A stretch of DNA of 64,000 nt from Rufibacter sp. XAAS-G3-1 (GTDB taxonomy: Bacteria > Bacteroidota > Bacteroidia > Cytophagales > Hymenobacteraceae): positions 62,001 through 126,000 of the forward strand of contig NZ_JABFAM010000014.1 in the NCBI RefSeq assembly GCF_013623775.1. The letters are read 5' to 3'. Positions 2,937-63,666 of the stretch are shown here, piece after piece (within the stretch, counting starts at the first letter, position 1; every line of letters begins with the position of its first letter). The position numbers and the translations under genes were made by a program. The notes beneath the pieces are model-generated. The model ran no database searches and had not been told where the DNA came from. It worked only from the letters and a program-made list of their open reading frames with translations.

Positions 2937-2978
2937 CCTGTTTTCAGGCTGTTTTTAGAAAAACAGCCTGAAAACAGG
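2937..2978. repeat. Perfect 42-nt palindrome of the dispersed GTTTT family
   Basis: Two 20-nt arms, complementary without a mismatch, surround a 2-nt centre. The left arm reads CCTGTTTTCAGGCTGTTTTT. It lies between the adaptor and permease genes of the efflux operon, so as RNA it would be an intercistronic hairpin. Confidence 0.9.
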
Positions 2979-2992
2979 GATAATTTTCTTAT

Positions 2993-3050
2993 AATCATTT
3001 CCTGTTTTAGGCCTGATTTTCTGAAATCAAGCCTAAAACAGGAAATGATT
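2993..3050. repeat. 58-nt palindrome of the dispersed GTTTT family, overlapping the adaptor stop codon
   Basis: A second hairpin sits 14 nt from the first. The outer arms (AATCATTTCCTGTTTTAGGC and complement) pair perfectly; the inner part has minor mismatches. The right end overlaps the stop codon of the adaptor gene (complement of 3049-3051). Possible roles are attenuation or mRNA processing between cistrons. Confidence 0.9.
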
Positions 3051-4236
3051 AAAGGAGGGCTTTCACCTCCACGTTCATCCCGGCACGGAGTTTCTCCAGG
3101 TCAGCGGGCTGGTTCTCCGGCGTGAACTCAATGCGTACCGGAATGCGCTGCTGTATTTTCACGAAGTTACCCGCAGAATTATCCGTTGGCACAGCGGAGT
3201 ATTTAGCGCCGGTGGCCTCGGAGATGGCGGTTACCTTGCCCTTGAAGACTTTGCCTTTCACGGCGTCCACCTCAATCTCCACCGGTTGCCCGATGGCCAG
3301 TTTCCCTGTCTGTGTTTCCTTGTAGTTGGCCACCACCCAAATCTGGTCGGCGCGCACGATGGGCACCAAGGCCTGCCCGGGTTGGATTAACTGCCCTTCC
3401 TGGATGTTCCTCCGGCCCACCACCCCATCATACGGCGCGGTGATGACGGTATAACTCAGGTTCAGTTTGGCCATGTCCAGCGCGGCGGCGGCACGTTTGA
3501 TGTTGGCGTCGTTCACGGCCAGCCTGGATTTCACCTCTGTGGTAGAAAGCTGGGTAGACTGTTTCTGTTTCTGAAGACCTCGGTAGCGGGCCCGGGCGGC
3601 ATCATACTCGGTTTTCACCTGCTCGTATTGCTGGCGCGTCACGGCTTCGTCTTTCAAAAGGCTTTCGTAGCGCCGGTAGTTCGCCTCCAGGTTTTCCAGG
3701 CGGGCCTGGGCCTCGGCGATGTTCGCCTCTGAAACCCCCACGTTGTTGCTCACGGTATTCACGCTGGAGCTGGTCACGTTCCTGCTGGCGACGGCATCCA
3801 GGTAGGCAGCCTCGGCCTGGGCCAGTTGGATTCTTATTTCGTTGTCATTAATGACCACCAAGGTGTCCCCTTGTTTCACCGGCTGGTGCTCGGTAAAGTA
3901 TATTTTATCAATGTAGCCACCCACGCGGGCGTTGATGGGGGTAATGAACTGCTCTACCTGGGCATCATTGGTGATTTCGTTCTTCCCGAAATCAAAGAAG
4001 AGAGTAGCCACCCAAAACAGGCCTCCGGCAATGGCCAGCAACAGCAAGGTGTTCATGATGATAGGCCCGGCCTTGCGTTTCTTGGGATGCGCGTGCGCTT
4101 CGTGGTGTTTCCCGTGCCCCTCCTGTTTGTGGGAATCCTGGGGAGCGTGGTTTTCGGGGGAAGGATGGCTTTGTTCCTTGTTCTCCGCAGGAGCCGCACT
4201 TCCTTCTATTGGGGTATTTTCTTTCTGTTGTGACAT
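3049..4236 (-). CDS. HlyD/EmrA-family periplasmic adaptor protein
   Basis: 395 residues. The cytoplasmic N-terminal tail (about 1-55) is rich in His, Glu and Lys; one membrane anchor follows (about 57-80, MNTLLLLAIAGGLFWVATLF). Next come the biotinyl-lipoyl half-motif (VKQGDTLVVINDNEIRIQLA), a long alpha-helical hairpin (about 130-260), the second lipoyl half (ITAPYDGVVGRRNIQEGQLI) and beta-barrel/membrane-proximal domains. This is the membrane-fusion protein that couples the inner-membrane permease to the TolC-like channel. The His-rich tail is unusual and could bind metal, but it is probably just a flexible cytosolic extension. It starts 18 nt downstream of the channel gene stop. Confidence 0.93.
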   Translation of the reverse strand: MSQQKENTPIEGSAAPAENKEQSHPSPENHAPQDSHKQEGHGKHHEAHAHPKKRKAGPIIMNTLLLLAIAGGLFWVATLFFDFGKNEITNDAQVEQFITPINARVGGYIDKIYFTEHQPVKQGDTLVVINDNEIRIQLAQAEAAYLDAVASRNVTSSSVNTVSNNVGVSEANIAEAQARLENLEANYRRYESLLKDEAVTRQQYEQVKTEYDAARARYRGLQKQKQSTQLSTTEVKSRLAVNDANIKRAAAALDMAKLNLSYTVITAPYDGVVGRRNIQEGQLIQPGQALVPIVRADQIWVVANYKETQTGKLAIGQPVEIEVDAVKGKVFKGKVTAISEATGAKYSAVPTDNSAGNFVKIQQRIPVRIEFTPENQPADLEKLRAGMNVEVKALL

Positions 4237-4254
4237 TTCTTTAATGGATTTCTG

Positions 4255-5574: not shown

Positions 5575-5579
5575 ACTAT

Positions 5580-6112: not shown

Positions 6113-6554
6113 AACAAACTAATTTTATAACTTTATTTTAGACTTGGGAAATTACCTGGACGGAGTTGGCCGGAGGAAGAATAGCATCGTTTATTCACCT
6201 GCTTTACGCCCTTTTCTGAGAACCTACAGAGAAATGCGGCTGCCCACTGTGAATATATCGACTTAGAAGCTGTTTGAAATTTCAGGAAAACAGCCCAAAA
6301 ACAGCCATTATAAGCGTGTTCCTGCCGTTCTGGAACTCCCGTTTTTGGCCTTGTTTTCAGAAACGAGCCCCAAAACGAAAGCAGAATCTATAAACACCTT
6401 CTATGGCGCGGATTTACTTCTGTGCCTGACGGATACTGCTTAGAAAGTCACGGAAGTAAATCCGCGCCATAGAGAGAAGTCATGGTAAAGTCTGTTTTGG
6501 CTTGTTTTCCTAAAAACAGGCTTAAAACACAAACTCTATCCGGTAATAAGGCAA
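6113..6554. other. Intergenic gap made of repeats
   Basis: No gene is visible. The stretch holds a solo half of the 43.4-kb palindrome (about 6267-6290, related to GTTTRAAATTTCAGG), two degenerate GTTTT-family palindromes (about 6340-6385 and 6494-6535), and the 72-nt inverted repeat at 6401-6472 listed separately. Confidence 0.6.
6401..6472. repeat. 72-nt inverted repeat, copy 1 of an intergenic element
   Basis: Arms CTATGGCGCGGATTTACTTC (6401-6420) and its exact complement (6453-6472) flank a conserved centre containing GGATACTGCTT. A second copy, inverted and truncated on one arm, is at 10829-10887. Sharing of both arms and centre marks a mobile or dispersed element. Confidence 0.85.
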
Positions 6555-10470: not shown

Positions 10471-10589
10471 CTATATTAGAGAAAACCTTTTTATATTCCC
10501 AATAAAGGGCATTGTCTCCTCAGCCTTGGCAGCAGTGACAGCAGGCAAAATCGGCTCCTAAGCACGGAGACAGCATTACGTTATCCTAT

Positions 10590-10680
10590 TTGTCTTCCTG
10601 GAAGGATCTTGTGGGCGAACTAGAATAGCTTTGATGGAGCACAATTGCCGTTCGCCACCAAGATCCTTCCAGGAAGACAA
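10590..10680. repeat. 91-nt inverted repeat (GATCTTGTGGGCGAACT family)
   Basis: Perfect 22-bp terminal arms: 10590-10611 begins TTGTCTTCCTGGAAGGATCT and is complementary to 10659-10680; a further GCGAAC/GTTCGC pairing lies inside. Related cores lie at 15471-15556 and 63441-63533. The size and structure are MITE-like. Confidence 0.85.
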
Positions 10681-10828
10681 CAAGAAAAGTAAGTAAAACT
10701 AATTCTGCCCGCGTACTTATATTTGGTAGCCCTAGAAAAGCAGTGATTTCCCACACTCGCGGGACGCGAGCGAGGGTTCTACTTTCGTTTATCTTCCCTT
10801 CTCCAGAACGCCCCACTAGGGTTTAGAG

Positions 10829-10887: not shown

Positions 10888-11300
10888 AATGCTGTTTTCA
10901 GGCTGTTTTAGAGAAAACACGCCCAAAACCGAAAATAAATTTTCAAGAGCACACAATATGCCGCAATCTTCCTCCGTTTTAGAGGGGAAATAGTTGTTGT
11001 GTGACGTAGCAAAAGGATCTGGCAGAAATAGCTGGATCTTTTTGTGTTTTTACCCGTTCCCGTTTCTTCCTCCTTTTCGGGAAATTACGCCTAAAAGGGG
11101 CAGATCACGCAGTAACCCGCTGCCCAAAGCACTTTCTTGTCTATAACTCACCGTTGTTAATCAAACAGGCAGCATTCCCCTTTTTCTGTTTCTGGCCTTG
11201 TTTTCTAAAAAGAGGCTAAAACCAGGAACCTTCCTGTGTTGGCGCACAATAACGGCCGCCAATGCTCCGTTTTATACCCGAAGTAGTTTCTGTTTAGCTT

Positions 11301-13746: not shown

Positions 13747-13788
13747 TCTGTTTTAGGGCTATTTTCCTCAAAACACCAGTAAAACATA
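13747..13788. repeat. Degenerate GTTTT-family palindrome
   Basis: TCTGTTTTAGGGCTATTTTC is followed by an imperfect complement with loop-side AAAA. It lies between the metalloprotease and dgt. Confidence 0.6.
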
Positions 13789-15229: not shown

Positions 15230-15270
15230 ATTGTTGGTTGTTTATTGTTGGTTGTAAATAGCCGAGAAAT

Positions 15271-15314
15271 GCCTGTTTCTGGGCTGTTTTTGCGAAAACA
15301 GCCCAGAAACAGGC
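15271..15314. repeat. Perfect 44-nt palindrome of the GTTTT family
   Basis: Arms of 20 nt (GCCTGTTTCTGGGCTGTTTT and complement) are separated by TGCG. It has no adjacent T-tract, unlike a simple terminator. Confidence 0.9.
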
Positions 15315-15352
15315 AGAAATTTGGATACATTCTGTAAATAAGCCCTCATTAC

Positions 15353-15444: not shown

Positions 15445-15470
15445 AAACAGTTCTTGCCCACTTTGCCATC

Positions 15471-15556
15471 TTGAAAAGATCTTGTGGGCGAACTGGAAAG
15501 CCTCTGCATTGCTGCCATTACCGCTTGCTCACAAGATCCTTGCAGGATGACAAAAA
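15471..15556. repeat. GATCTTGTGGGCGAACT-family inverted repeat
   Basis: It opens with CATCTTGAAAAGATCTTGTG and closes with CACAAGATCCTTGCAGGATG, imperfect complementary arms. The core is shared with 10590-10680 and 63441-63533. Confidence 0.7.
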
Positions 15557-16567: not shown

Positions 16568-16609
16568 TCCATTTTCGGGCTAGTTTAGGTAAAATAGCCT
16601 AAAAATGGA
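16568..16609. repeat. GTTTT-family palindrome in the purU leader
   Basis: TCCATTTTCGGGCTAGTTT pairs with AAATAGCCTAAAAATGGA with few mismatches. It ends about 20 nt upstream of the purU start, so it would fold in the 5' untranslated region if transcribed. Confidence 0.65.
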
Positions 16610-17467: not shown

Positions 17468-17527
17468 AACCGCCCCTCCGCTTTGGGCCTGTTTTTATAA
17501 AAACAGGCCCAAAGCGGAGGGGCGGTT
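17468..17527. repeat. 60-bp perfect palindrome (GTTTT family with long GC-rich outer stem)
   Basis: Thirty nucleotides are followed immediately by their exact reverse complement. The core GGGCCTGTTTTTATAAAAAC is typical of the family; the outer CCGCCCCTCCGC stem is unique to this copy. It lies 21 bp downstream of the ZIP transporter gene and probably ends its transcript. Confidence 0.95.
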
Positions 17528-19448: not shown

Positions 19449-19502
19449 CCGAAGCCCGTTTTTGGGCTATTATAAGAAAAACAGACCAAAAACGGGCTTC
19501 GG
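19449..19502. repeat. 54-nt GTTTT-family palindrome
   Basis: Outer arms CCGAAGCCCGTTTTTGG and complement pair perfectly; the inner part has mismatches. It lies between two small lipoprotein genes. Confidence 0.8.
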
Positions 19503-21461: not shown

Positions 21462-21470
21462 AAAAAAGGC

Positions 21471-21493
21471 ACCGAACTATCGGTGCCTTTTCT
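21471..21493. terminator. Terminator between the DUF4783 gene and nadC
   Basis: AAAAGGCACCG and CGGTGCCTTTT surround a 6-nt loop and are followed by a T-tract on the minus strand. It terminates the DUF4783 transcript and abuts the nadC promoter. Confidence 0.75.
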
Positions 21494-23663: not shown

Positions 23664-23716
23664 CTAAAAAACGGAGACGGAGAAGCTCCTTTGCTTTCTC
23701 TGTCTCCGTTTTTTAG
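23664..23716. terminator. Bidirectional terminator after gpmI
   Basis: CTAAAAAACGGAGAC and its complement GTCTCCGTTTTTTAG form a stem with a loop of about 20 nt and run straight into a GTTTT-family palindrome (to about 23745), which reuses the T-rich arm. Confidence 0.75.
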
Positions 23717-23775
23717 CTGTTTTCCGTAAAACAAGCCAAAAACAACTTCTTCCTATTCCTGTCTTTGCCCAACTC

Positions 23776-24865: not shown

Positions 24866-27100
24866 ATGCAAAACTATCAGAATCACCGCGTTGATCTTTC
24901 CAATTGTGACACGGAGCCCATCCACCTGATTGGTCGCATTCAACCCCACGGTTTTCTGCTGGTTTTAAACCAGGAGACCTTGCAGATTGAACAGGCCAGC
25001 AGAAATGTGGGCGATTACCTGCCGCTTTCTCTGGAGGAAATCTTAGGAAAACCGCTGGAAAACCTTCTTTCTGAGGAAGAAAATACGTTTGACCCGCAGC
25101 TGCCTGGCACCCATTTTCTTACGTTAAGCGGCGTTCCGTTTATAGGCTATCTTCATAAAACCGAGGCGAAACTAGTGCTGGAATGTGAGCCCAGCGCCCC
25201 TTACCCCAATGCGGAGAAGATGCACCACAACATCCTTCTCGGGCAACTCCACAACCGCCTCAACCATTTATACACGCTGGAAGAGGTAGCCCAAACCGTG
25301 GCCGACACGCTGCGCACCATCCTGCACTATGACCGCGTAGACATCACCCAATTTGACCAGGAGTGGAACACCGATGTGATTGCCGAGAGCCGCGCCCCGC
25401 ACCTGCATTCCTTCATTGGTCACCATTTTCCGGCCTCCGACATTCCGGTTCCGGCGCGGGAGCTGCTGCTGCACAAGCACGTGCGCCAAATCCCAGACGT
25501 GAACGCCCAGGCCGTACAGATTTTCCCGTACTTCAACCCAAGCACCGGCGCACCTACCAACATTCTGCGGTCAGAACTGCGCAACCCTTCTGAGATACAC
25601 CTGGAGTACGTCCGGAACACGGGGGTGGCGGCTACCATCTCGTTCTCCATCATCGTGAAAAACAAGCTGTGGGGCGTGATTGCGTGCCACAATCTGGCGC
25701 CAACGTATATTGACGTCTGGCGGCGGCAACTCTGTGACCTGGTGACCAAGACCTTCGGGAATGTGATTGCCTCTATTCAGGAGAAACGCGATCAGGAGCA
25801 GTTTGAGCAGTACAAACTGGCAAAGCAGGCACTGGTGCAGCATTTGAACAGTGGCTTGCCCATGCCCGAAGGCCTGTTCCACCAGGAGCCCACCTTGCTG
25901 GATCTCACCGAAGGCCATGGCGCAGCGCTTCTGCAGGATGGCACCTTGACTACGTTCGGCATTACTCCCACGCAAGAGCAAATCAGGCACCTGGTGCAAT
26001 GGCTTTCTGAGCATGTCGCTGACGGTGTGTTCTGTACCCGCCAACTGTCTGCGGAATGGCCTGCGGCGAAAGACTTCACCAGCACGGCTAGTGGCCTGCT
26101 GGCCTTGGAGATCTCCCGTTACAACCAAGAGTACCTGCTGTTCTTTAAACCGGAGATAAACGAAACCAGAACCTGGGCAGGCAACCCAGAAAAGCCTGTG
26201 TCTAAAGACAACCTGGGCATTCACCCCAGAAAGTCGTTTGAGAAATGGCTGGAGGTGATCAAAGGCAAATCAAAACCCTGGAGCCTGAACGAGGTAGAAA
26301 TTACCCGAATCCTGTTGAAGGATTTGGTGGCTATCCGGCTCCGGAACCAGACCGCAGAATTGCAGAACCTGAACCAGGAACTCCAGCTCAACACAGACCA
26401 GTTACGCACCAGAAATGCGCAGCTGGAAGATTTCGCGTACATCATCTCCCACAACCTGCGTTCCCCTTTGGCTACCATTCAAGGCCTGCACCGGTTCTAC
26501 GAAGACGAGCCTGGCGAGGACAGTGCCACGTACGTCATGAATAGCGTAAAGAAGGTAAGCGACAACATGGCCGAAACCATAGATGATTTAAATGTTATTC
26601 TAAAGACGCATCTGTTGCGGCAACTTCCAGAGAAAGAAGTTAATTTACAGGAACTGATTCAGAAGGAAACCCAAAACCTGGGCGACATTTTGGAGCAAAC
26701 TGGGGCGCAGATTTGGTCTGAGTTGGAGGTGCCTTCCATCTTTATGCCTAAACTCTATTTGGAGAGCATTTTACACAACTTCATCTCAAACGCACTCAAG
26801 TACCGTTCGCCAGAGCGCCCGCCGGTAGTCATAGTCAAAAGCTGGCGCACCGGCAAAACGCTGCATCTTTCCGTTTCTGACAACGGCGTGGGCATGAACC
26901 TTGACCGGATAGGAGACAAGCTGTTTGGTCTGTACAAGGTGTTCCACCAAACCGAACAATCCAAAGGCTTGGGGCTTTACCTCACCAAGATGCAGGTAAA
27001 TGCCTTGGGCGGCACCATAGACGTGGACAGCGCATTGGGCAAAGGCACCACCTTTACGGTGAATTTCACCAACATAGCCTATTCACCCAAAACGCGGTAA
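24866..27100 (+). CDS. bphP: Bacteriophytochrome histidine kinase
   Basis: 744 residues. The N-terminal bilin-attachment Cys14 sits in LSNCDTEPIHLIGRIQPHGF. A PAS domain (about 15-110), a GAF domain with the chromophore-contact PASDIP motif and ACHNLAPTYI (about 130-300), and a PHY domain with the tongue signatures WAGNP and PRKSF (about 330-480) follow. A coiled linker leads to a HisKA domain with His529 in FAYIISHNLRSPLATIQGL and a HATPase_c domain (N-box NFISNALKY, G-boxes SDNGVGMN and KGLGLYLTKM). It senses red/far-red light through a biliverdin-type chromophore and signals by phosphotransfer. No response regulator or classical haem oxygenase is adjacent; a divergent ABM protein is. Confidence 0.94.
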   Translation: MQNYQNHRVDLSNCDTEPIHLIGRIQPHGFLLVLNQETLQIEQASRNVGDYLPLSLEEILGKPLENLLSEEENTFDPQLPGTHFLTLSGVPFIGYLHKTEAKLVLECEPSAPYPNAEKMHHNILLGQLHNRLNHLYTLEEVAQTVADTLRTILHYDRVDITQFDQEWNTDVIAESRAPHLHSFIGHHFPASDIPVPARELLLHKHVRQIPDVNAQAVQIFPYFNPSTGAPTNILRSELRNPSEIHLEYVRNTGVAATISFSIIVKNKLWGVIACHNLAPTYIDVWRRQLCDLVTKTFGNVIASIQEKRDQEQFEQYKLAKQALVQHLNSGLPMPEGLFHQEPTLLDLTEGHGAALLQDGTLTTFGITPTQEQIRHLVQWLSEHVADGVFCTRQLSAEWPAAKDFTSTASGLLALEISRYNQEYLLFFKPEINETRTWAGNPEKPVSKDNLGIHPRKSFEKWLEVIKGKSKPWSLNEVEITRILLKDLVAIRLRNQTAELQNLNQELQLNTDQLRTRNAQLEDFAYIISHNLRSPLATIQGLHRFYEDEPGEDSATYVMNSVKKVSDNMAETIDDLNVILKTHLLRQLPEKEVNLQELIQKETQNLGDILEQTGAQIWSELEVPSIFMPKLYLESILHNFISNALKYRSPERPPVVIVKSWRTGKTLHLSVSDNGVGMNLDRIGDKLFGLYKVFHQTEQSKGLGLYLTKMQVNALGGTIDVDSALGKGTTFTVNFTNIAYSPKTR

Positions 27101-27412
27101 GCAGTTGCTCATCCTCTTGGGCTGGCACATCCCTCCAAAATCCTTTTTGCAAAGCAAGGAGCTTCGTTATAAGCACATGCCGTTTAAGGCCTGTTTTCCA
27201 AAAAGCAGGCCTTAAACAACCATCTTTTTCTAGTACAATTCTTAGATATCACTCCCAGTTCTTAGGACAAGTAGCAGAAATGTACCTTTATCAGGTCGAA
27301 ACCAGAAATAAATTGCCCCTTCTCTACCTACCCTGTAGTAGAATATGTAGAAAACCAATATCTTAGATGCGTCCTTTTTACAACCCTTTCACTACCACTC
27401 TGTTCACCTATC
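27101..27412. other. Intergenic region after the phytochrome gene
   Basis: It holds the palindrome at 27182-27217, then AT-rich DNA leading to the next gene. No gene or RNA is evident. Confidence 0.5.
27182..27217. repeat. 36-nt GTTTT-family palindrome
   Basis: GTTTAAGGCCTGTTTTCC with complement GGCCTTAAAC; a compact copy that shows the family core clearly. It lies 80 bp beyond the phytochrome stop codon. Confidence 0.85.
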
Positions 27413-29036: not shown

Positions 29037-29080
29037 AGCTGTTTTAGGCCTGTTTTCCGGAAAGCAGGTCTAAAACAGCT
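29037..29080 (+). terminator. GTTTT-family palindrome acting as terminator
   Basis: AGCTGTTTTAGGCCTG pairs with its near complement and is followed by eight Ts on the plus strand, directly after the outer-membrane gene. It shows that at least one member of the family can terminate transcription. Confidence 0.75.
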
Positions 29081-30938: not shown

Positions 30939-31090
30939 GGCTGAAGTAACGTATTGACCAGGGTGGTGTAGTATGAGTATTGCTAACGGATTTATCTCTA
31001 TTGCAAAGCTTTCTGTGCCTAAACGTGCTTTCTGGTTACTTTACGTTTTAGGCCTTCTTTCTGCAAAACAGGCCAAAAAGGCGAAGAAAC

Positions 31091-32243: not shown

Positions 32244-32508
32244 CGAAATTTCCGGCGCATTTCTTCGTGTGCGTTTAAGGCTTGTTTCTGGAAAAAGGGG
32301 CTAAAAACAGAGCTGCTTTTCTTTCACCTGCCTCTCGGCACGGCCCTCCCCCACTGCGATTGGGTAGAGCTAATGCTGGTAGGGGAGCCAACTTCTCCCA
32401 TGAGTTCCCGAAGAACCAGCCAGCCATTTTCCGCAAAGCCGGATTTTTTACTCATTTTTGCAAAAACAACCTTAAAACGCACGTCATTTCTTTCCCGTAC
32501 CCTTCGCT

Positions 32509-33737: not shown

Positions 33738-33787
33738 AAAAACGGAAAGCCCCGGCTGTTTATAAACTGCCGGGGCTTTCCGTTTTT
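33738..33787. terminator. Bidirectional terminator after the RlmI-like gene
   Basis: AAAAACGGAAAGCCCCGGC and its complement around TGTTTATAAACT, T-tracted on both strands. It lies between convergent genes and is followed by a degenerate GTTTT palindrome. Confidence 0.85.
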
Positions 33788-33862
33788 GGCTTATCTTGGT
33801 AAAAACAGATTAAAAAGAGGAATTTGCTTCCTGCTATGCACTTCCAAGTTTTAAATTCGCCC

Positions 33863-33904
33863 CTAGTTTCTGGTCTGTTTTGGTAAAATCGGGTTAAAAA
33901 CAGA
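33863..33904. repeat. Degenerate GTTTT-family palindrome
   Basis: TTTCTGGTCTGTTTTGGT followed by AAAATCGGGTTAAAAACAGA; the outer stem is good and the core imperfect. Confidence 0.55.
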
Positions 33905-35391: not shown

Positions 35392-35433
35392 TCTGTTTGA
35401 GGGCTGTTTTCAGAAAAACACGCCTTAAACAGA
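35392..35433. repeat. GTTTT-family palindrome
   Basis: TCTGTTTGAGGGCTGTTTTC pairs with GAAAAACACGCCTTAAACAGA with few mismatches. Located just upstream of the RsmF promoter and touching the C-terminus of the next gene. Confidence 0.7.
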
Positions 35434-37020: not shown

Positions 37021-37225
37021 GTTCTTTGGGTTAAGGTAGAATCTATGAACGGAAAAGGAACCCTTATGGATGAACCCACGAAAGCATCGGCTTTCTTTTT
37101 GGGCTATTTCCAGAAAACCAGGCGGTAAACGGACTATTTCTATGCTAAATTTGTTATCTCTGTAACCGCATTATCTGCCGCCCAAGCATTACATATAGCT
37201 TTTTCGCGGCGCGGAAATCATTCTT

Positions 37226-38679: not shown

Positions 38680-40134
38680 ATGTTCTTCCAGAAATACTCC
38701 CCCTCCAAAGGCTTCCTGGCTTCGGTCGCGCTCTGCCTGGCGCTTTGCTTTAGCACTATTTCTACGGGCTGGGCGCAGACCAAAGTCACGCTTACCGGTA
38801 AAATAGAGAATGCCGTCAGTGACAGCGTGCTGTTGGAACTGTATACGGTTCCGGCGGCGTACTCCGGCGTTTCGTACACGGTGGCCCTGGGCAAAAACGG
38901 CGAATTCACGCTTACCGCGCCGGTAGCAGAGCCCATGCTGGGCGAATTGGTACACGGCCCCGAGTCCATCATGCTGTTCCTGCAACCCGGCGACCAACTG
39001 GATGTTCGCGCCGATGCCGAAGACATGGTGAGCAGCGTGAAACTGAAAGGCAAAGGGTTTGATGAGAACAACTTCCTGATTCAGTTTGAGCGCAAGTTTG
39101 AAGAAGAGGAAGATTACCAAGTGCTGCCAGACAACATCCACAAGCGCGAAAAGGAGTTTCTGCTGTTTCTAGAAGAACGGAAGCAAGACCAACTTAAGTT
39201 TCTGGACAAGTTCCTGAAAAGCGCCCAAGTGTCAGAAGCGTTTAAAGGCTACGTGCAGGCGCAGATTAACTTCGGCTACGCCAATGACCGGCTCACGTAC
39301 GCAGACGTACGCAAACGCGTGGGTGATTTGCCTCCCCAGCTTTCGGCCAACTACTATGATTTCCTGAAGCAAGTAAACCTGAACGCGCCGGGAGCCCTCA
39401 GAAACCAGGCGTACCTAGATTTCCTGAACAACTATTTCCAGTACAGAGTCCTGCAGGAAAAACCCGCCAGCCTGGAGCGCGACTATTACCCTAACCTGTA
39501 CAGCTTAGCCAAGAAAGAACTGCAGGGGCCCGCGCGGGACATGCTGCTGTCGCGCATTCTTTCGCAGACCCTGCGGTTTGGGTACGTACCAGACGCAGAC
39601 GCCATGTACCTGGATTTTCAGAAAGAAGTCAAAGACGCGAATTACGTGTCTTTTATCCAAACCCAGTACAAACAGTTCAGAAGGGTAGGCTTGGGCAGCC
39701 CGGCCCCGGCGTTCACCCTTTTATCCGCCACCGGCGAGAATGTTTCCTTGAGCAGCTTCAAAGATAAGATGGTGTACCTGGGTTTCTGGCGCACGCACTG
39801 CGGCATCTGTACCGTTGACCAACAAGCCTACAAGTATTTCGCCGAGCAGCTAGCAGATAAGGGCATTGTGCTGGTGCAGGTATCGGTGGGAGAGGACTTA
39901 CAGGCGTGGAAGCAGAGCATGGCCCAGAAGAAACTGCCCGGCGTGCAGTTGTACGCCCCAGATTTATCGGCCCAGATTCTGAAAGACTATGACGTGACTT
40001 CGTTCCCGGCCTATTTCCTCATTGCCCCAGACGGCACGCTCATCAGTACCAACGCGCGCCGGCCCGGCCACGCCGAAGGTGCCCGTGAGGTAGCCGCCGC
40101 CGTAGACCTGTACCGCAAATCTGCCCGCAAGTAG
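38680..40134 (+). CDS. TlpA-like thiol:disulfide oxidoreductase with N-terminal DUF4369-like domain
   Basis: 484 residues. Signal segment about 1-30 ending TGWAQT. The N-terminal beta domain (about 33-140) matches the DUF4369 pattern (VTLTGKIENAVSDSVLLELY). A helical middle is followed by a redoxin domain (about 350-480) with the active site GFWRTHCGICTVDQQ, a C-G-I-C motif, plus the cis-Pro region TSFPAYFLIAPDG. Such proteins reduce or isomerise periplasmic disulfides, or serve thiol peroxidase-like roles. It stands alone between radA and the radical SAM gene. Confidence 0.88.
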   Translation: MFFQKYSPSKGFLASVALCLALCFSTISTGWAQTKVTLTGKIENAVSDSVLLELYTVPAAYSGVSYTVALGKNGEFTLTAPVAEPMLGELVHGPESIMLFLQPGDQLDVRADAEDMVSSVKLKGKGFDENNFLIQFERKFEEEEDYQVLPDNIHKREKEFLLFLEERKQDQLKFLDKFLKSAQVSEAFKGYVQAQINFGYANDRLTYADVRKRVGDLPPQLSANYYDFLKQVNLNAPGALRNQAYLDFLNNYFQYRVLQEKPASLERDYYPNLYSLAKKELQGPARDMLLSRILSQTLRFGYVPDADAMYLDFQKEVKDANYVSFIQTQYKQFRRVGLGSPAPAFTLLSATGENVSLSSFKDKMVYLGFWRTHCGICTVDQQAYKYFAEQLADKGIVLVQVSVGEDLQAWKQSMAQKKLPGVQLYAPDLSAQILKDYDVTSFPAYFLIAPDGTLISTNARRPGHAEGAREVAAAVDLYRKSARK

Positions 40135-40224
40135 CGTTTTTTGCGTACTTTTGGGAAAACAGGTTTAAATCAGAAATAGGGGCGGTTTACGTAAGCAACC
40201 CATATTTTACTTTCGCGCAGCACC

Positions 40225-42333: not shown

Positions 42334-42358
42334 TCTTCGGCCGTTTTTGTCTGCTCTT
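42305..42358. terminator. Perfect 25-bp-stem terminator carrying the mscS stop codon in its loop
   Basis: The left arm (42305-42329) is coding sequence for the last eight residues; the 4-nt loop ATAG holds the stop; the right arm repeats the left in reverse complement and includes CCGTTTTTG. Both strands read a T-run, so it may terminate in both directions. Confidence 0.9.
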
Positions 42359-42709: not shown

Positions 42710-42970
42710 AACCCAGTATTTTTAGATGGTTTTAGTATCCATTGATGGTATCTGAACTATACGTAAAAACCACGCCTGGTTGCCAGTTATATTCAAAGAA
42801 AATGATATTTCTGCTTTCTGATGCGGGCACATCAACCAAAAGCATTTGCCGGGGAAGGGCGCTTTTTGGCTGTTTTCTTAAAAAGAGCCGGGAAGCAGGC
42901 AAGCTTACAAACAGAGGGAGCCGCTCCTGCTAGAAACGGCTCCCCCTGTTTTTAAGTGAATGGGTACGTA

Positions 42971-43230: not shown

Positions 43231-43280
43231 AATTGCTGTTTTGGGGCTATTTCCCTAAAAGCAGCCCTAAAACGGCAATG
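43231..43280. repeat. 50-nt GTTTT-family palindrome
   Basis: AATTGCTGTTTTGGGGCTA and TAGCCC..AAAACGGCAAT-type complement with two mismatches. A second, degenerate copy is at about 43299-43340. Confidence 0.75.
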
Positions 43281-43440
43281 CCCTACAGAAAAGCCCTTTG
43301 CTGTTTTGGGCCATTTTTAAAAAACCACCCCTAAAACGCCTTCCCTAAACGGGATGGTATCAGTCCTTCAATCAAAACTTGTCCTTAAACCTTAAGAGGC
43401 ACTACGCAAAGCAGAGCGTCTCTCTTGGCTCTTCGGCTTA

Positions 43441-45405: not shown

Positions 45406-47034
45406 TTATCTTTTACCGGTTTTGCGGGTAAATCCCAGAAATAAGGCCAAAAACGCCAAGCCTAGCGCGAGCCACTGGGTTCCGTGCCCAATGAATTCGC
45501 CGTGGCGGGTGTAAAACGTTTGGGTCTGGTTGAACCTGATTTGTCCGCGCAGGGCCGCCGGTACCCACCAACCTGATTTCTGGAGCAGTTCGCCTTTCTG
45601 GTTGATGAACCCCGAGATGCCCGTATTGGCTGAACGCGCCACATCCCGTCTGGTTTCAATGGCCCGCAAAGAAGCGTAGGCCAAGTGCTGCTTGTAGCCT
45701 GGGCTGTCGCTCCACCAGGCGTCATTGGTGATGATGAAGATGGCGTTGGCCCCGTTCCGGATGTACTCACTCACGTACTCGCCGTAAATAGACTCATAGC
45801 ACACCACCGGCGCGCCAGACAGCTGTGGATTCTGGCTATGCCTGAAAACAGCCCGGGTGTCTTGCGAGCCCATGTTGCCGGCAATGCCGCCCAGGTCAAT
45901 GGAGAACATTTTCAAGGCTTTGAACATACCGGGGTACGGCGTCTTCTCCACGCCCGGCACCAGCTTTGACTTATGGTAGAACGCGTGCTGGCCGGTTGGT
46001 TTGAAGTGCAAAGCCGCATTGTACACGTCATAATAGCCCACCTGCTCATGGAAACGGGCCGTGCTGCTTCGCTGGGTAGAATCTGGGTACAACCGGGCCG
46101 AGGTAATTCCCGCGACCAACTCCACGCCGGGGTGCCGCGCCAGAAAATCGCGCAGGGCGTAACTCACCGGACTCATCCCGAAGTTTTCTTCCCAGTTGAT
46201 GCCGTTGCTGATGGAGGTTTCGGGCCAGAGCACAAACTTGGTGTTAGGCGTAATCTGCTGCTCAGACAGCTTGATGAGACGCTCAAATTGCTGTTCAAAC
46301 GGAATGTAGCCTTCGCCGCCCTCAAACTTCTCTTTGTACGGGTCTACGTTGGGCTGCACCACCACTACTTCGGCGGTTTCGCCTTGTTCCTGGTACTGGC
46401 TGCCAATGTAGAAGGACAGCAGCAGCGGCAACAGGAACGTCAACACCGGGGCAACCCATTTGCTCCAGTTCTTGGCCGGAGAAGTCAGCGCGAAGAACAC
46501 CAACAGGTTCCCCCCCCACACCCACAGCGAACCACCCAGAAAGCCCGTGTATTCATACCATTGCACCCAGCTTGGCAGCGAGGCAAAGCCGTTTCCTAAC
46601 GTGAGCCAAGGCCAGCTCAAATCCCAGTTCAGGTGAAACTGCTCAAACGCAATCCAGTACACGGGCAAACTGAGATACCCAATGGTTTTCCCTGCTGCCC
46701 GTTTAGTCCAGAAGAACGCCATCATAGGCATCATCATGAACAGCGCGTTGAACACCACGGCCGCAATACCGCCGCCCAGCGTGGAGTAACTTACCCAATA
46801 GGTGGTGAAGATGTTCCAGAGCAGCAGCAGCAGATAGGCGTGTTTGAAAAACGTGCGGCCTCGTTTTGGGGCTACTTTTTCAGAAATGGCCTTTTCCATG
46901 AACAGGAACGGCACCCAGCCTATAAACAAGAAAATAGCCAGTGGTTTCACCGGCCAACCCAACCACAGCAGGAAGGCGCTCATGAGTGCCAGCCCCGGGA
47001 GGTAAAAACGATTATTTGTTTCCTTGAACAACAA
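45406..47034 (-). CDS. lnt: Apolipoprotein N-acyltransferase
   Basis: About 542 residues. The N-terminal half has roughly seven membrane helices; the C-terminal nitrilase-fold domain has the catalytic triad Glu (VLWPETSIS), Lys (YHKSKLVPGVE) and Cys (PVVCYESIYGEY). It N-acylates the lipid-modified Cys of lipoproteins in the inner membrane. The start is uncertain: an in-frame ATG at 47097 lies 86 nt inside rsmI, and one at 46983 would remove part of helix 1. TTG at 47034 has AAAGGAG 9 nt upstream and overlaps the rsmI end by 23 nt, so it is preferred. Confidence 0.9.
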   Translation of the reverse strand: MLFKETNNRFYLPGLALMSAFLLWLGWPVKPLAIFLFIGWVPFLFMEKAISEKVAPKRGRTFFKHAYLLLLLWNIFTTYWVSYSTLGGGIAAVVFNALFMMMPMMAFFWTKRAAGKTIGYLSLPVYWIAFEQFHLNWDLSWPWLTLGNGFASLPSWVQWYEYTGFLGGSLWVWGGNLLVFFALTSPAKNWSKWVAPVLTFLLPLLLSFYIGSQYQEQGETAEVVVVQPNVDPYKEKFEGGEGYIPFEQQFERLIKLSEQQITPNTKFVLWPETSISNGINWEENFGMSPVSYALRDFLARHPGVELVAGITSARLYPDSTQRSSTARFHEQVGYYDVYNAALHFKPTGQHAFYHKSKLVPGVEKTPYPGMFKALKMFSIDLGGIAGNMGSQDTRAVFRHSQNPQLSGAPVVCYESIYGEYVSEYIRNGANAIFIITNDAWWSDSPGYKQHLAYASLRAIETRRDVARSANTGISGFINQKGELLQKSGWWVPAALRGQIRFNQTQTFYTRHGEFIGHGTQWLALGLAFLALFLGFTRKTGKR

Positions 47035-47757: not shown

Positions 47758-47763
47758 GGAACG

Positions 47764-47801
47764 CGTTTATGGGCTGGTTTCTGGAAAACAGGCCCAAAAC
47801 G
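47764..47801. repeat. GTTTT-family palindrome
   Basis: CGTTTATGGGCTGGTTTC pairs with GAAAACAGGCCCAAAACG with a few mismatches. Confidence 0.65.
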
Positions 47802-47891
47802 TTCTCCATAAAACGTACTCGCAGCTTCTAACAGGAGATGTAGACACGGCGTTTTTGCACTGATTCCCAAGAAACAGCCTGGAAACGGACT

Positions 47892-49556: not shown

Positions 49557-49601
49557 TACCGTTTCCCGCGTGTTTTTTGAATAATTAGTTTAAACCAGAA
49601 A

Positions 49602-49875: not shown

Positions 49876-49909
49876 AAAAAGCACCTTCTTCACAGAAGGT
49901 GCTTTTTTA
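49876..49909 (+). terminator. Intrinsic terminator after the hydrophilic protein genes
   Basis: AAAAAGCACCTTCT and AGAAGGTGCTTTTTT around TCAC; perfect stem with T-tail. Confidence 0.85.
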
Positions 49910-51143: not shown

Positions 51144-53954
51144 ATGGAGAAAATTTTACTCAGAAGAAATGCTTCCGGGGAAAGTAGGGCAAGAAGAATC
51201 TGGCTATTTTTAGTTTTGATTCTTTGCGGAATAGTGTCAGTAGCACAGGCACAGGTGACAAGCTTGCCTACAACCTATGGAGGACGTTGGAATACTTTGA
51301 ACAACTCCCCTGCACCTAAGCAAGGGTGGTCACACGTTGGCTTACCTACGGATACTAACATAAACCTAGGCACAACTGACGCCACCACCCATGCAACCAA
51401 CACAAGATCTGCAAGTTTCGATGGAGACGGCGATCAATTGATTATTAATTTCTCTGGAATCACCAATCAGTCTCCCGGAGAATTTAGCTATCACATTGCA
51501 TATGTTGGCAGTGCTTCTTCCTTCACCGGAGAGATGCTGTTGGAGCAATCGGTGAATGGCACTATTTGGTCTACATTACAAACCATTAACAGCAGTTCAA
51601 ACATAGCAAAAATAACCCAGAGTGATGCAGCCATCTTACCTATTACTGCAACTCCTAACTCAGCTTCAAGATATCTGCGATTCAGAGCTACTTCAATTCC
51701 AGCAGGTGTCACCAACATACTTATTGACAAAGTAACACTAAGCCCAAGGCCTGCTGCCCCTGAAATCAATATTGTGGTAGGAAATACCACACAGGCGAAC
51801 GGTACTACTTATACGTTTACGGAACAACAAAATATCAACACCAGCAGCCCTCCGGTTACCTTTACCATACAAAACAATGGAGACTCACCCTTGTCTATTG
51901 CAACCCCATTGGTATTAAGCGGCACAAACACTGATCAATACGAGATTCTAGGAGCCCCATCTTCTTCTCTTGCAGCAGGGGCAACCACTTCGTTTCAGGT
52001 TGTTTTTAAGCCAACCACAGCAACAATCAAAAGTGCAGCAGTTACTATCGGCAACAATGACTCTGATGAAAATCCCTATACCATTAATCTCAGCGGAAGA
52101 GGCGCAATTCTAGCACCTATTATTACGAGTTTTGAACCAGACGCCGGTACCGTTGGAAGCACCATCATTATCCGTGGTTCTCATTTCACGAACGCGCAAA
52201 CTGTTATATTCAACAACGGCACCCCAGAGGGGAAAACGGCTACCCTCACAAGAATTGACGATAACACAATATCAGCCACCGTTCCGGCAGGTGCAGAAAC
52301 TGGCAAGATTAAGCTCTCTTACAACAATTCCTTAACAGCAGAAAGCAACGGGGTTTTCACAGTTATCTCTACCCCAATCATCACGGACTTTACTCCTAAG
52401 ACAGGCCCGGTCGGCACGATGGTGACGGTGACGGGGGCGAACTTCACTGCTGGCGGCGGCCTGCTGTTCAAGAACGCAGCCGGCGAGTACCTCTACTCAG
52501 AGGGCTACGAACTGGTGAGCAGCACCCAGATCAGGGGCAAGGTGCCGCAAGGCGCGGTGACGGGCGTCATCTCGGTGGAGGACGACAACGGCGCGATCAC
52601 GCAGAGCGACCAGAACTTCACCGTGACCATACCGGCTCCCGTTATTACAGAATTATCTCCTACAGCAGCACCTGTTGGAACACTTATAACTGTTACTGGC
52701 TCTAACTTGAAAGGCATCATCAACATCACCTTTGGAGGTGTGCTTGCCACAGAATATGATGACACAGAAGAAAACACTTTATATGTTTATGTTCCGGAAG
52801 GTGCTCAATCAGGCTCAATGGTAGTAACCACAGCGGGAGGCTCAGCACAATCAAACTTTACCGTAACCATTCCTGAACCAATCATCACGGACTTTACTCC
52901 TAAGACAGGCCCAGTCGGCACGATGGTGACGGTGACGGGGGCGAACTTCACTGCTGGCGGCGGCCTGCTGTTCAAGAACGCAGCCGGCGAGTACCTCTAC
53001 TCAGAGGGCTACGAACTGGTGAGCAGCACCCAGATCAGGGGCAAGGTGCCGCAAGGCGCGGTGACGGGCGTCATCTCGGTGGAGGACGACAACGGCGCCA
53101 TCACGCAGAGCGACCAGAACTTCACCGTGACCATACCGGCTCCCGTTATCACTTCCGTTAGCCCCAACACCGGCCCAGTTGGAACCGTAGTAGCTGTTGC
53201 AGGAACAGATTTGAAGAACATTATTTCAGTTTCTTTCAATGGCATTCCAGCCTCTTTCTATGGAACGGAAGAAGGTCTCACTACAGTTGTGCCCGAAGAC
53301 GCCACTAGCGGGCCTATCATGGTAAAAACCGCAGGCGGAACAACGGAGTTTGAATTCCTGGTACTTACCAGCACATTGCCAGTAGAGTTGATTGATTTCA
53401 CGGCAAAGAGCGTTTCAACCGGTGTGATTCTAAACTGGAAAACCGCTTCAGAGAAGAACAACGCTTACTTTGAAGTGCAGGCAAGCGCCGATCCTTTAAA
53501 AGAGGGATTCAAGACCATCCAACGCGTAGACAGCAAAGCAACCAACAGCTCAACCCCTACTTCCTATGAAGCAGAAGACCACACGGCCAAAGGCGCAGTT
53601 GCCTACTACCGCCTGAAGCAAGTAGATTTAGACGGGAAGGCAGAGTTCAGCAAAACAATTGCAGTAGAGAAACCCGCTTCCAACAAAACGGCTATTGCCG
53701 TTAAGGCATACCCCAATCCATTTGATGACAGCCATAACCTGAACCTTGAAGTTGCAACCGAGAAGGCCGGCGCCCTAACTGCAACCCTCTATTATGTGAC
53801 TGGGAAAAAAGCACTTGAGCAGGTGTACAAGGTAGAAGCGGGCACCTCAATCTTAGAACTGCCCGTAAACAACGCATCAGTAAGCGCCGGCATGTACATC
53901 TTAGTGACTGAACTAAACGGTGAGGTTACCACCACCCGTGTCATTAAAAAGTAA
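51144..53954 (+). CDS. Large T9SS-secreted multi-IPT/TIG surface protein
   Basis: 936 residues. Signal 1-38 (ending VSVAQAQ), a lectin-like beta-sandwich (about 40-205), a choice-of-anchor D/ASPM-like module (about 210-325), then five IPT/TIG Ig-like domains: about 326-410, 411-501, 502-578, 579-669 and 670-745, a fibronectin-like domain and a C-terminal type A T9SS sorting domain (from AYPNPFDDSHNLNLEV). It is probably an adhesin or surface glycan-binding protein exported by T9SS. IPT domains 2 and 4 are almost identical in DNA (52374-52645 and 52878-53149), while domains 3 and 5 have diverged. Confidence 0.88.
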   Translation: MEKILLRRNASGESRARRIWLFLVLILCGIVSVAQAQVTSLPTTYGGRWNTLNNSPAPKQGWSHVGLPTDTNINLGTTDATTHATNTRSASFDGDGDQLIINFSGITNQSPGEFSYHIAYVGSASSFTGEMLLEQSVNGTIWSTLQTINSSSNIAKITQSDAAILPITATPNSASRYLRFRATSIPAGVTNILIDKVTLSPRPAAPEINIVVGNTTQANGTTYTFTEQQNINTSSPPVTFTIQNNGDSPLSIATPLVLSGTNTDQYEILGAPSSSLAAGATTSFQVVFKPTTATIKSAAVTIGNNDSDENPYTINLSGRGAILAPIITSFEPDAGTVGSTIIIRGSHFTNAQTVIFNNGTPEGKTATLTRIDDNTISATVPAGAETGKIKLSYNNSLTAESNGVFTVISTPIITDFTPKTGPVGTMVTVTGANFTAGGGLLFKNAAGEYLYSEGYELVSSTQIRGKVPQGAVTGVISVEDDNGAITQSDQNFTVTIPAPVITELSPTAAPVGTLITVTGSNLKGIINITFGGVLATEYDDTEENTLYVYVPEGAQSGSMVVTTAGGSAQSNFTVTIPEPIITDFTPKTGPVGTMVTVTGANFTAGGGLLFKNAAGEYLYSEGYELVSSTQIRGKVPQGAVTGVISVEDDNGAITQSDQNFTVTIPAPVITSVSPNTGPVGTVVAVAGTDLKNIISVSFNGIPASFYGTEEGLTTVVPEDATSGPIMVKTAGGTTEFEFLVLTSTLPVELIDFTAKSVSTGVILNWKTASEKNNAYFEVQASADPLKEGFKTIQRVDSKATNSSTPTSYEAEDHTAKGAVAYYRLKQVDLDGKAEFSKTIAVEKPASNKTAIAVKAYPNPFDDSHNLNLEVATEKAGALTATLYYVTGKKALEQVYKVEAGTSILELPVNNASVSAGMYILVTELNGEVTTTRVIKK
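52374..52645 (+). repeat. 272-bp near-identical IPT module, copy 1
   Basis: It differs from copy 2 at only two positions (a G/A and a G/C change) and is visibly more GC-rich than the surrounding AT-rich gene. Offset to copy 2 is 504 bp, a whole number of codons. Confidence 0.9.
52878..53149 (+). repeat. 272-bp near-identical IPT module, copy 2
   Basis: The partner of 52374-52645. Recombination between the two would delete or duplicate exactly 168 codons in frame. Confidence 0.9.
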
Positions 53955-53970
53955 CCACAAACGTTTTGTA

Positions 53971-54000
53971 AAAAGGGGAGGCAAATGCCTCCCCTTTTTT
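53971..54000. terminator. Terminator after the IPT-repeat gene
   Basis: AAAAGGGGAGGC and GCCTCCCCTTTTTT form a perfect stem with an AAAT loop and a T-tail on the plus strand. Confidence 0.85.
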
Positions 54001-54117: not shown

Positions 54118-54180
54118 CCCAAAACGCATCGCTCCAGCCCCCTCTCCCACGGAAAAGGGCTGGGGCGATGCGTTTTGGGG
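54118..54180. repeat. 63-nt palindrome joined to a GTTTT copy
   Basis: CCCAAAACGCATCGC and its exact complement, then CCAGCCC/GGGCTGG within; the 15-nt loop is irregular. The right arm passes directly into a second, GTTTT-family hairpin. Confidence 0.8.
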
Positions 54181-54432
54181 CTATTTTACGGAAAACGGAC
54201 TGTAAACGGCAGGCCGCTGTTATTATTTTCCGGTAGAGAACAGGCACTGCCTTGTCTCTGGCACGCATTGCCTTCTACGGTTGGTTTTCCTGAGGGGCAG
54301 ACATCCTCCCTTCGTTCCAGCGTTTTAGGCTTGTTTTGCAGAAAGTAGGCCATAAACGGCATTGGCGTAGACACTCTGCGCACACTCCGAGGTCTTTGGC
54401 GCCGTTTTGCGGAAAACAGGCCAAAAACGCAG

Positions 54433-57525: not shown

Positions 57526-57542
57526 CCCCTAAACAGCCCCGC

Positions 57543-57576
57543 AAAAAACCCTCAGACATTCTCTGAGGGTTTTTTG
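57543..57576. terminator. Terminator after the second T9SS gene
   Basis: AAAAAACCCTCAGA and TCTGAGGGTTTTTT around CATTC, perfect 14-bp stem with T-tail; a degenerate GTTTT copy follows at about 57579-57607. Confidence 0.85.
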
Positions 57577-57643
57577 TTTGTTTTCCTGAAAACAGCCCCT
57601 AAACGCTCCCCTCGCTTTCTGGTGCCCTTGCGCGTCTAAATCA

Positions 57644-60289: not shown

Positions 60290-60580
60290 GAGTTCTGAGT
60301 CTTGAGTTCTGAGTCCAGAGTCAAAATAAAACGTAGGGGTGCCTCTTGTGGGTGCCCTTGCTGTTTTGGGGCTGTTTTCTGTAAAATAGGCTATAAACGG
60401 AAGAAGCTCCGCCTATGATTTGATTGTTATTGCCCCGGCAGAAAAACAGAAACCATAACCACTGCTTGCGGTTGTTGGTATTGTCACCAACAACCGAGGC
60501 CCCGTTTCACCTGCTTAGGGCAACCACAAGGGATTGCCCCTACATCCATATCCTGACTCAGAACTCAGGACTCAAGACTC
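60290..60580. repeat. Composite inverted-repeat element with GAGTTCTGAG ends
   Basis: The left end (60290-60315) has tandem GAGTTCTGAGT units and the right end (60555-60580) their complement (GACTCAGAACTCAGGACTC). Inside lie a second inverted pair (GTAGGGG.../...CCCCTAC), and a GTTTT palindrome at 60361-60400. No gene. It is a nested set of repeats of about 290 bp. Confidence 0.75.
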
Positions 60581-62080: not shown

Positions 62081-62087
62081 CGGAACC

Positions 62088-62549: not shown

Positions 62550-62602
62550 TCTCCTAGGCACTCTTCCGTTTTCTGTTACGCAAGCCAGCTACCAAACCCA
62601 CC

Positions 62603-63412
62603 ATGCAGTACGATCCCATCAAACGCGTTCTGGGCGAGGCGTTCAACAAAACGCCTTTCCTGCGCAGACTTTTTTACCACCTCTTAGACCTGCTGCTGCT
62701 GCGTACGTGGCACATCCACAAAGAACTGCGCGCCTGGGCCAAAACCAAACGCCAGCAGCCCCTCCAGATTCTGGATGCCGGCTCGGGCTTTGGCCAGTAC
62801 AGCTATTACCTCTCGGGCATGAGCCCCAAATGGCGTATTCTGGCCGTAGACGTGAAAGACGAGCAGATTGCCGACTGCGCCAACTTCTTCCAGAGAATAG
62901 GGCGGCATAACGTCATGTTCCGGAAAGAAGATCTGGTCACGTTCCAAGACCCGGAGGCGTTTGACCTGGTGCTGAGCGTAGACGTGATGGAGCACATTCT
63001 GGAAGACGTGGAAGTGTTCAGAAACTTCCATGCCTCTATGCGCCCGGGCGGCATGCTGCTCATTTCCACGCCCTCAGACCAGGGCGGTTCAGACGTGCAC
63101 GGCTCTGAGGAAAGTTCTTTCATTGAGGAACACGTGCGCGATGGCTACAACATTGAGGAAATACAGCAGAAACTCAGAAGCGCGGGCTTCAGCCGCACCC
63201 AGGCGCATTATTCGTACGGCGCGCCCGGCAAAATCTCCTGGCGCCTGAGCATGAAATACCCCATTCTCCTGTTGGGTACCACCAAGCTGTTCTTCCTTCT
63301 TTTGCCGTTCTACTACCTGTTGGTGTACCCTTTTTGCCTCCTGTTGAACTGGCTGGACACCACCGGCAAGCACCCCACCGGCACCGGCCTTATTGTGAAA
63401 GCCTGGAAATAA
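62603..63412 (+). CDS. Class I SAM-dependent methyltransferase
   Basis: 269 residues. Motif I is ILDAGSGFGQYSYYLSGM, motif II ILAVDVKDEQI, and the motif IV/post-I region LVLSVDVMEHILEDVEVFRN, as in UbiE/polyketide-type small-molecule methyltransferases. The C-terminus has a hydrophobic stretch (LLGTTKLFFLLLPFYYLLVY, about 215-240), so it may be membrane-tethered and act on a lipid or an undecaprenyl substrate. The stop TAA (63410-63412) is the first trinucleotide of a MITE-like element. Confidence 0.88.
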   Translation: MQYDPIKRVLGEAFNKTPFLRRLFYHLLDLLLLRTWHIHKELRAWAKTKRQQPLQILDAGSGFGQYSYYLSGMSPKWRILAVDVKDEQIADCANFFQRIGRHNVMFRKEDLVTFQDPEAFDLVLSVDVMEHILEDVEVFRNFHASMRPGGMLLISTPSDQGGSDVHGSEESSFIEEHVRDGYNIEEIQQKLRSAGFSRTQAHYSYGAPGKISWRLSMKYPILLLGTTKLFFLLLPFYYLLVYPFCLLLNWLDTTGKHPTGTGLIVKAWK

Positions 63413-63563
63413 GTAATTGGGCAGACATAACTATCCCTCTCTTTGTCCTCCTGAAAAGATTTCGGTGGCGAACGGCAACGGCGTTTATCTACCGCTTTTC
63501 TAGTTCGCCCACAAAATCCTTTCAGGGTGACATAAGGGATACTATAATTTATCCTGCTACTTA
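63410..63563. repeat. MITE-like element, long copy (TAAGTA ends)
   Basis: Starts TAAGTAATTGGGCAGACATA and ends ATCCTGCTACTTA; the same ends as 15353-15444 but with an interior related to 10590-10680 (63441-63533). The first three bases are the methyltransferase stop codon. Confidence 0.8.
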
Positions 63564-63602
63564 GAAGCCTATACAAGAGGTTGGCAGTTCTTGTAGCACA
63601 AA

Positions 63603-63666
63603 GAAAAGCAGCCCTTGTTTTTGGCATCTTTTCTGAAAAACACCCTAAAAACAAGGGCTGCTTTTC
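63603..63666. repeat. 64-nt GTTTT-family palindrome
   Basis: GAAAAGCAGCCCTTGTTTTT and its complement, about 20-bp outer stem; the loop side is imperfect. It lies in front of the next GNAT gene. Confidence 0.8.

Follow-up and report, generated by a model that had tools for sequence, protein, structure and literature searches.

The window analysed here is a 64,000-nt stretch of the genome of Rufibacter sp. XAAS-G3-1 (G000:C2:62001-126000; source genome G000, 5.3 Mb in 73 contigs), and it carries numerous copies of a 40-nt palindromic element, termed here the dyad, belonging to a family of roughly 3,000 copies per genome that lie mostly between genes. In our judgement, most of these copies are probably sites recognised in duplex DNA, and neither hairpins nor transposons. 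The data require a reader of the dyad in duplex DNA, and also some way, other than transposition, of holding thousands of sites to a common spelling. The best reading, which we favour tentatively and by analogy, is that of a self-signal read by a protein, in the manner of DNA uptake sequences. The palindromes would then be recognition sites particular to the genus, which a putative sequence-specific DNA-binding protein would read in the double strand. The sites are inherited in place, and their spelling shifts together within a species; biased replacement would best explain this, DNA in the preferred spelling being taken up more often and overwriting the same locus by transformation and homologous recombination. 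Observed here are the abundance, the fixed register, the independent core arms, the conservation, the shared positions, the dialects and the even spacing at 5-20 kb, from which the protein, the uptake and the drive are inferred. The minority of copies with paired outer arms may double as hairpins or terminators.

An abundant 40-nt dyad in the genus Rufibacter

Copies were detected with an iterated 40-nt profile and called at >=20 bits in a search set of 864 kb, consisting of the window and 800 kb from two further contigs of the same genome; all gene and intergene counts rest on gene calls made with our own script and not on the annotation. This search yielded 482 copies, 37 of them inside the window, which extrapolates to ~2,950 copies for the whole genome, while a single order-3 Markov realisation of the 864 kb gave 0 matches at >=18 bits and 1 between 16 and 18. 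Only 38 of the 482 copies are centred in called genes. An initial annotation of the window had proposed about 28 dispersed palindromes with a shared core, forming one mainly intergenic family; all 28 of its coordinates match profile copies (lowest score 32.8), and the genome-wide number is in the hundreds to thousands. The refutation test set by that annotation gives a divided result, since copies abound beyond the window and yet the core arms do not covary. A de novo search of the window found 17 palindromes scoring >=12, as against 0 in seven and 1 in one of eight order-2 Markov controls. Seven of the 17 contain the core, and some of the core-less ones resemble ordinary bidirectional terminators (e.g. 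21464-21491 and 49876-49907). Genome-wide, there are 67+67 occurrences of the exact core, GTTTTNGGCNTGTTTTC, as against 0+0 for its reversed control. No match to Rfam at gathering scores was obtained in the window, and a full-text search of open papers, which did not cover subscription journals, returned neither a published description nor a name for the motif, as the initial annotation had supposed.

Each copy consists of two half-sites CYGTTTTNGGSCTGTTTTC arranged about a 2-nt centre, giving the consensus CYGTTTTNGGSCTGTTTTC-NN-GAAAACAGSCCNAAAACRG. A half-site contains two T-tracts spaced 11 bp, which places both on one face of the helix. The dyad is rigid: a good partner stands at offset 0 for 276 of 332 left half-sites (>=18 bits), and 26 lack any near register. 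Examples are the near-perfect palindrome at 2938..2977 (profile score 51.7), the copy at 3002..3041 (score 47.2), whose paired outer arms reach 2992-3051, and that at 15273..15312 (score 48.6), within a perfect palindrome at 15270-15315; the latter two were also recovered as de novo palindromes.

The exact 17-nt core was present in all 16 searched genomes of the genus (5 to 503 matches each), and in none of 9 genomes from other genera of the family; elsewhere in the order, 2 of 14 genomes from different families had a single match each. The reversed core gave one match in each of two genomes. The range of exact-core counts is misleading because spelling differs among species. Profiles refitted to each species gave 3.4-6.3 copies per 10 kb in 9 congeners, a count that excludes G001 (too few data) and in which a few copies are counted twice, as neighbouring pieces overlap by <=1 kb in five species. 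The profile found no match in 180 kb from five sister genera, and a 30-nt pattern run against 84,980 species genomes, from which records near the source genome may be omitted, matched only Rufibacter sediminis, R. roseus and R. ruber.

Pairing between the arms

According to the initial annotation, the outer stems differ from copy to copy with compensating changes, as selection for hairpin formation would predict. We compared the paired fraction at each distance d (in nt from the dyad centre) with that of re-paired (shuffled) arms in 439 intergenic copies, using direct pair counts and shuffles instead of a covariance model and R-scape, which addresses the same question. At d=3-10 the paired fraction equals that of re-paired arms (|z| <=1.2), with a small excess at d=2 (z 4.2). 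The pair counts at d=9 over 480 copies were G-G 115, G-C 108, C-G 104 and C-C 91; as G and C are equally common at this position, detection bias cannot act there. Between species (28 site families, 111 comparisons), double changes were still paired in 19 of 32 cases at d5-10 and in 26 of 42 at d11-13.

Three results argue against a family made up of duplex sites only: (i) covariation with z 4.1-7.8 at d=11-13 and d=18-20, estimated to concern 12-29% of copies and fading by d=22, (ii) double changes at d18-20 that are still paired between species in 29 of 32 cases, and (iii) a mean number of paired positions (d2-19) exceeding that of re-paired arms in 8 of 9 congeners, by at most 1.3 of 18 (G009), the value in G013 being 0.2 below. 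Where the outer arms extend by >=4 (35 copies), d5 and d9 pair better than chance. Long outer stems are kept with compensation at two sites, namely 17478..17517 (score 45.0; stem 17468-17527, compensatory changes in 5 congeners) and 19456..19495 (score 41.9; stem retained in 7 congeners), and in families with long stems in our genome the positions d11-13 and 18-26 showed 25 double changes that were paired, 3 that were unpaired, and 10 single changes that break a pair. The copy at 29039..29078 (score 49.6), with convergent genes on either side, is paired by different letters in several congeners. Since pairing begins at d=11 and fades outward, extended perfect arms could also arise by template-switch copying of one arm. 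In six species the outer arms at 17468-17527 have kept their complementarity through many double changes, and the core arms have not, a pattern compatible with both selection and template-switch copying.

Overall, pairing is important towards the outer end of the arms and at individual sites, not in the core, and the hairpin reading of the family is for the most part not supported. The core arms do not covary, and a hairpin or RNA family was accordingly rejected for the core on the pair counts and retained for the minority of copies and the outer positions. Compensated outer stems are real for a minority of copies (e.g. 17478 and 19456) and not general; likewise, selection for hairpins is not supported overall, d=3-10 being paired no more than by chance, and is favoured by the covariation at d=11-13 and d=18-20, in the paired double changes at the latter, in the two long stems and at 29039.

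That the copies are transcript-end hairpins, either bidirectional terminators or stabilisers of mRNA 3' ends selected as RNA structure, is quite unlikely. The outer covariation and the two compensated stems speak for this explanation, as does the occupancy of intergenes of 60-200 bp, of which 16/25 convergent, 53/126 tandem and only 1/32 divergent ones hold a copy. Moreover, some copies adjoin or lie within terminator-like stems: the copy at 33780..33819 (score 28.0; missing from the initial annotation) has its left T-tract 3' of a terminator-like hairpin at 33738-33787, that at 57567..57606 (score 40.0) overlaps the T-tract of a terminator-like palindrome at 57542-57576, and that at 63615..63654 (score 39.3) is nested in a terminator-like outer stem at 63603-63666, as read from the sequence. 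A hairpin ends directly before the left arm in 4-5% of 504 contexts against a background of 1-2%, so that some overlap between terminators and dyads is real. Nevertheless, the core arms do not covary, the 248 tandem copies show no sense-strand T enrichment on their 3' side (T fraction 0.17-0.38 over 30 nt), longer divergent intergenes are occupied (40/67), and the window holds separate terminator-like palindromes of the A-tract/stem/T-tract type. The initial annotation was thus right that most copies lack a T-tract, and the missing downstream T-tract led us to reject the intrinsic terminator as the general class.

The separate palindromes, at 21464-21491, 49876-49907, 53970-53999 and 57542-57576, look like bidirectional terminators and are distinct from the dyad family. 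The palindromes at 42305-42358 and 33738-33787 are not themselves family copies, although the second adjoins one.

Fixed positions and species dialects

Conservation by position was determined for 12 sites of our genome in 56 orthologous intergene pairs, a small sample of related species. The T-tract positions (d3, 4, 14 and 15) are 95.3% identical between species (427/448), as compared to 75.5% for A/T runs and 67.5% for other positions outside the elements. Within the element, d0, 1, 9, 11, 12 and 13 are only 45-58% identical, and non-T-tract positions range from 45 to 83%. If an inserted repeat were decaying neutrally, no such position-specific pattern would arise. The sites themselves are fixed: in 188 orthologous intergene comparisons from the window (thresholds of >=18 bits for the relative and >=25 for our genome), the relative was occupied in 93 of 101 cases where our genome is occupied, and in 15 of 87 where it is empty. 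The intergenes holding the copies at 23706..23745 (score 43.7), 31043..31082 (score 38.5) and 35393..35432 (score 42.1) have an element in 13/13, 14/15 and 11/12 of the congeners compared, respectively.

The spelling of these fixed sites varies by species. The 10 arms from orthologous intergenes of G012 (5 sites) all carry C at d6 and either A or G at d5, whereas the commonest letters in the remaining 14 congeners and our own genome are G at d6 (tied in G005) and T at d5. At d12, all 24 arms from orthologous intergenes of G007 and G013 carry T. The same locus adopts the dialect of its own species without moving.

A decaying family of repetitive extragenic palindromes (REP) or miniature inverted-repeat transposable elements (MITE), spread by a Y1 transposase (REP-associated tyrosine transposase, RAYT) or by another transposase, is highly unlikely. 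The dyad does resemble REPs in that its copies are short palindromes, located downstream of genes and between them, and counted in thousands, and the genome contains a single Y1 match. As the initial annotation had indicated, no such transposase lies in the window, the sole match being on another contig. Its RAYT-like frame (L009:1258-1905, minus strand) sits between its own inverted repeats, GCCAATCT..AGATTGGC (1222 and 1861; span 1222-1878), which are unrelated to the dyad. Dyad copies occur only farther out, at 1016 and 2652; their distances of ~200 and ~750 nt from these repeats might be taken to favour a link, and are those that the general density predicts. Passages of PMC3733652 describe two REP families, GTAG and CGTC, RAYT transposases going with GTAG, and report CGTC REPs in Bacteroidetes among other phyla, with no dedicated transposase. 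Beside the palindrome we found neither tag, as no letter reaches 40% at any d=20-49 (480 copies). A Y1 match is present in 15 of 16 genomes, and G007, with 0 matches, nonetheless has 356 exact cores. The REP/RAYT class was rejected for these reasons: no end tag, a RAYT not flanked by the element, and abundance in G007 without Y1. The dyad further departs from REPs and MITEs in its conserved orthologous positions, position-specific constraint and independent core arms.

Genomic spacing

Because intergene lengths vary, random placement by intergene length is too weak a null for spacing, and occupancy was instead permuted between intergenes that match in type and length class. Over 800 kb, the Fano factors of copy counts per 5, 10 and 20 kb were 0.68, 0.50 and 0.47, versus ~1.06 after permutation (0/1000 permutations each), so that at 5-20 kb the copies are spaced more regularly than the arrangement of genes would account for. 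The GC content is 0.42-0.51 in 13 of the 14 longest gaps without an element (contig mean 0.511), and low-GC surroundings are occupied in 15/38 cases as compared to 164/267 otherwise (Fisher p=0.013, for a cut chosen post hoc and with GC only a proxy for acquired DNA).

The main rival, which we regard as rather unlikely, is a site for a protein that organises the nucleoid or chromosome and that would, as a dimer or tetramer, clamp the four helically phased T-tracts, on average every 1.8 kb; the sites would space loops or domains, and specificity would drift among species. The rigid dyad, the phased T-tracts, the few genic copies, the even spacing at 5-20 kb and the conserved positions all speak for it. 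However, the dyad was not found in sister genera (180 kb of five by profile, 9 genomes for the exact core), two of which have unrelated abundant motifs (see below), occupancy is lower in low-GC DNA, and it is hard to see how site-by-site selection would make ~3,000 sites change letter together at weakly constrained positions, as in G012. Should the nucleoid explanation hold, the dyad would represent a sequence-specific, evenly spaced organiser with ~3,000 sites.

Comparison with DNA uptake sequences

Biased uptake combined with recombination is the accepted account of the DNA uptake sequences (DUS) of Neisseriaceae, and these share with the dyad their thousands of copies, species dialects, greater conservation than the flanks and intergenic preference. 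Passages of PMC3630211 describe DUS dialects as congruent with phylogeny, and passages of PMC2397512 give an identity of 97% for DUS sites versus ~85% for average conserved sequence and locate them in permissive places of the core genome, absent from recently acquired genes; between them, the two sources also mention the intergenic preference and inverted pairs tied to terminators. DUS differ in being short oriented units, 10-12 nt long, that suffice as single copies (PMC2397512), whereas the Rufibacter element is a rigid 40-nt dyad, rarely genic, in Bacteroidota. The lone half-site as unit, as in classical DUS, was not borne out, lone half-sites being rare in Rufibacter; the family is not filed as DUS, the single-unit feature failing, even though it would work most like DUS. 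ComEC is encoded by an uninterrupted frame in 16/16 genomes of the genus. Other motifs of similar abundance in sister lineages (see below) also speak for a self-signal, as does, by its GC proxy, the lower occupancy of low-GC DNA. Part of PMC7965970 reports that Riemerella columbina, also of the Bacteroidota, favours its own DNA in transformation, and PMC13020248 suggests that, in the two families known to have them, uptake sequences may be recruited to act as terminators, which would fit the hairpin minority observed here.

Several observations count against a self-signal. Unlike DUS, lone half-sites are rare, and genic copies are few, as given above. ComEC is found across the order as well (24/25 genomes searched), and hence discriminates nothing and is only permissive. 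Divergent intergenes of >=200 bp, of which 40/67 hold copies, have a lower density (1.48 per kb vs 2.6). As to spacing, occupancy is no lower near another element, the coefficient of variation of the gaps is not significant, and neighbouring occupancy is weakly positively correlated. A nucleoid protein would explain most of the facts, the dialects excepted, and both the uptake role and the receptor are predictions made by analogy.

Abundant motifs in sister lineages

The uptake signal sequences (USS) of Pasteurellaceae have a density similar to that of the dyad and combine helically phased A/T tracts with an adjacent GC core. Their closest counterpart here is found in genus g2 (G016, L096-L097 and L105-L110), which carries an oriented 29-nt motif, ACTTTTTnnGnnnAAAAnCATAGCGTTTT, in 126 copies in 160 kb (control 1), made up of two T/A tracts and a TAGCGTTTT core, at ~8 per 10 kb in both genic and intergenic positions; its layout resembles Haemophilus USS, from which the Rufibacter motif differs in being a dyad. 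A 140-kb section of one contig has 112 g2 motifs, 47 of them genic, with a strand use of 58/54 and 8 inverted pairs set 9 nt apart; here the motif is not evenly spaced (Fano 1.0), a further point against the self-signal. Among 120 genomes of the family, only two contain an exact form, and they belong to g2 (G016, 307; G021, 23).

A different motif, the 8-mer CCCTAGGT, reaches 3106, 2980 and 2808 copies in three of the eight g5 genomes tested (the three being G019, G042 and G054), with reversed controls of 2, 1 and 5 and about equal use of the strands, as opposed to 8-20 copies in the remaining five. In 100 kb of G019 it has 67 sites with a Fano factor of 0.69, and its one-letter neighbours are few there, except GCCTAGGT (32) and TCCTAGGT (12). 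In size it is similar to HIP1, the highly iterated, clade-specific palindrome present in thousands of copies in cyanobacteria, whereas the Rufibacter dyad is longer, gapped and mainly intergenic. G017 has a weak AT-rich motif (144 vs 73 in the control), no abundant motif of such kind was found in G018, and 40 kb of G020 were examined.

An abundance near 3,000 per genome thus recurs across lineages. It is possible, though we hold this with some doubt, that three or more self-DNA signals, each specific to a lineage, arose independently within one Bacteroidota family (the Rufibacter dyad, the g2 29-nt motif and CCCTAGGT in part of g5), with ~3,000 copies of each per genome. To our knowledge, uptake-type self signals have been described in two proteobacterial families only, Neisseriaceae and Pasteurellaceae; if true, these would be the first outside them, and that of Rufibacter the first read as a dyad. 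Why such signals arise is debated, and three unrelated hyper-abundant motifs, with on/off contrasts within g5 (~3,000 vs 8-20) and dialect shifts in situ, would allow a comparative search for the drive and the receptor.

Remaining copies in the window and other repeats

The other dyad copies that match the initial annotation lie at 6339..6378 (score 41.6), 6491..6530 (40.3), 10892..10931 (44.2), 11186..11225 (38.1), 13748..13787 (36.4), 16569..16608 (35.3), 27180..27219 (46.0), 32271..32310 (39.6), 33864..33903 (32.8), 37093..37132 (34.3), 42859..42898 (33.1), 43236..43275 (46.6), 43300..43339 (33.4), 47763..47802 (45.7), 54320..54359 (43.0), 54391..54430 (34.3) and 60361..60400 (48.2). Copies that it did not list are those at 40134..40173 (34.1), 47849..47888 (33.8) and 54170..54209 (42.7), the degenerate ones at 11060..11099 (26.5), 32441..32480 (29.3) and 45417..45456 (26.8), the last at the 3' end of the reading frame 45406-47097, and a weak one at 49559..49598 (21.5). 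Another weak copy, at 25136..25175 (20.1), falls within a called gene.

Two further repeats were noticed in the window. A ~95-nt repeat with inverted ends is present in three copies (10589-10683, 15462-15556 and 63442-63536), and two 275-nt direct repeats, 99% identical (52374-52648 and 52878-53152), lie within a 936-aa frame at 51144-53954.

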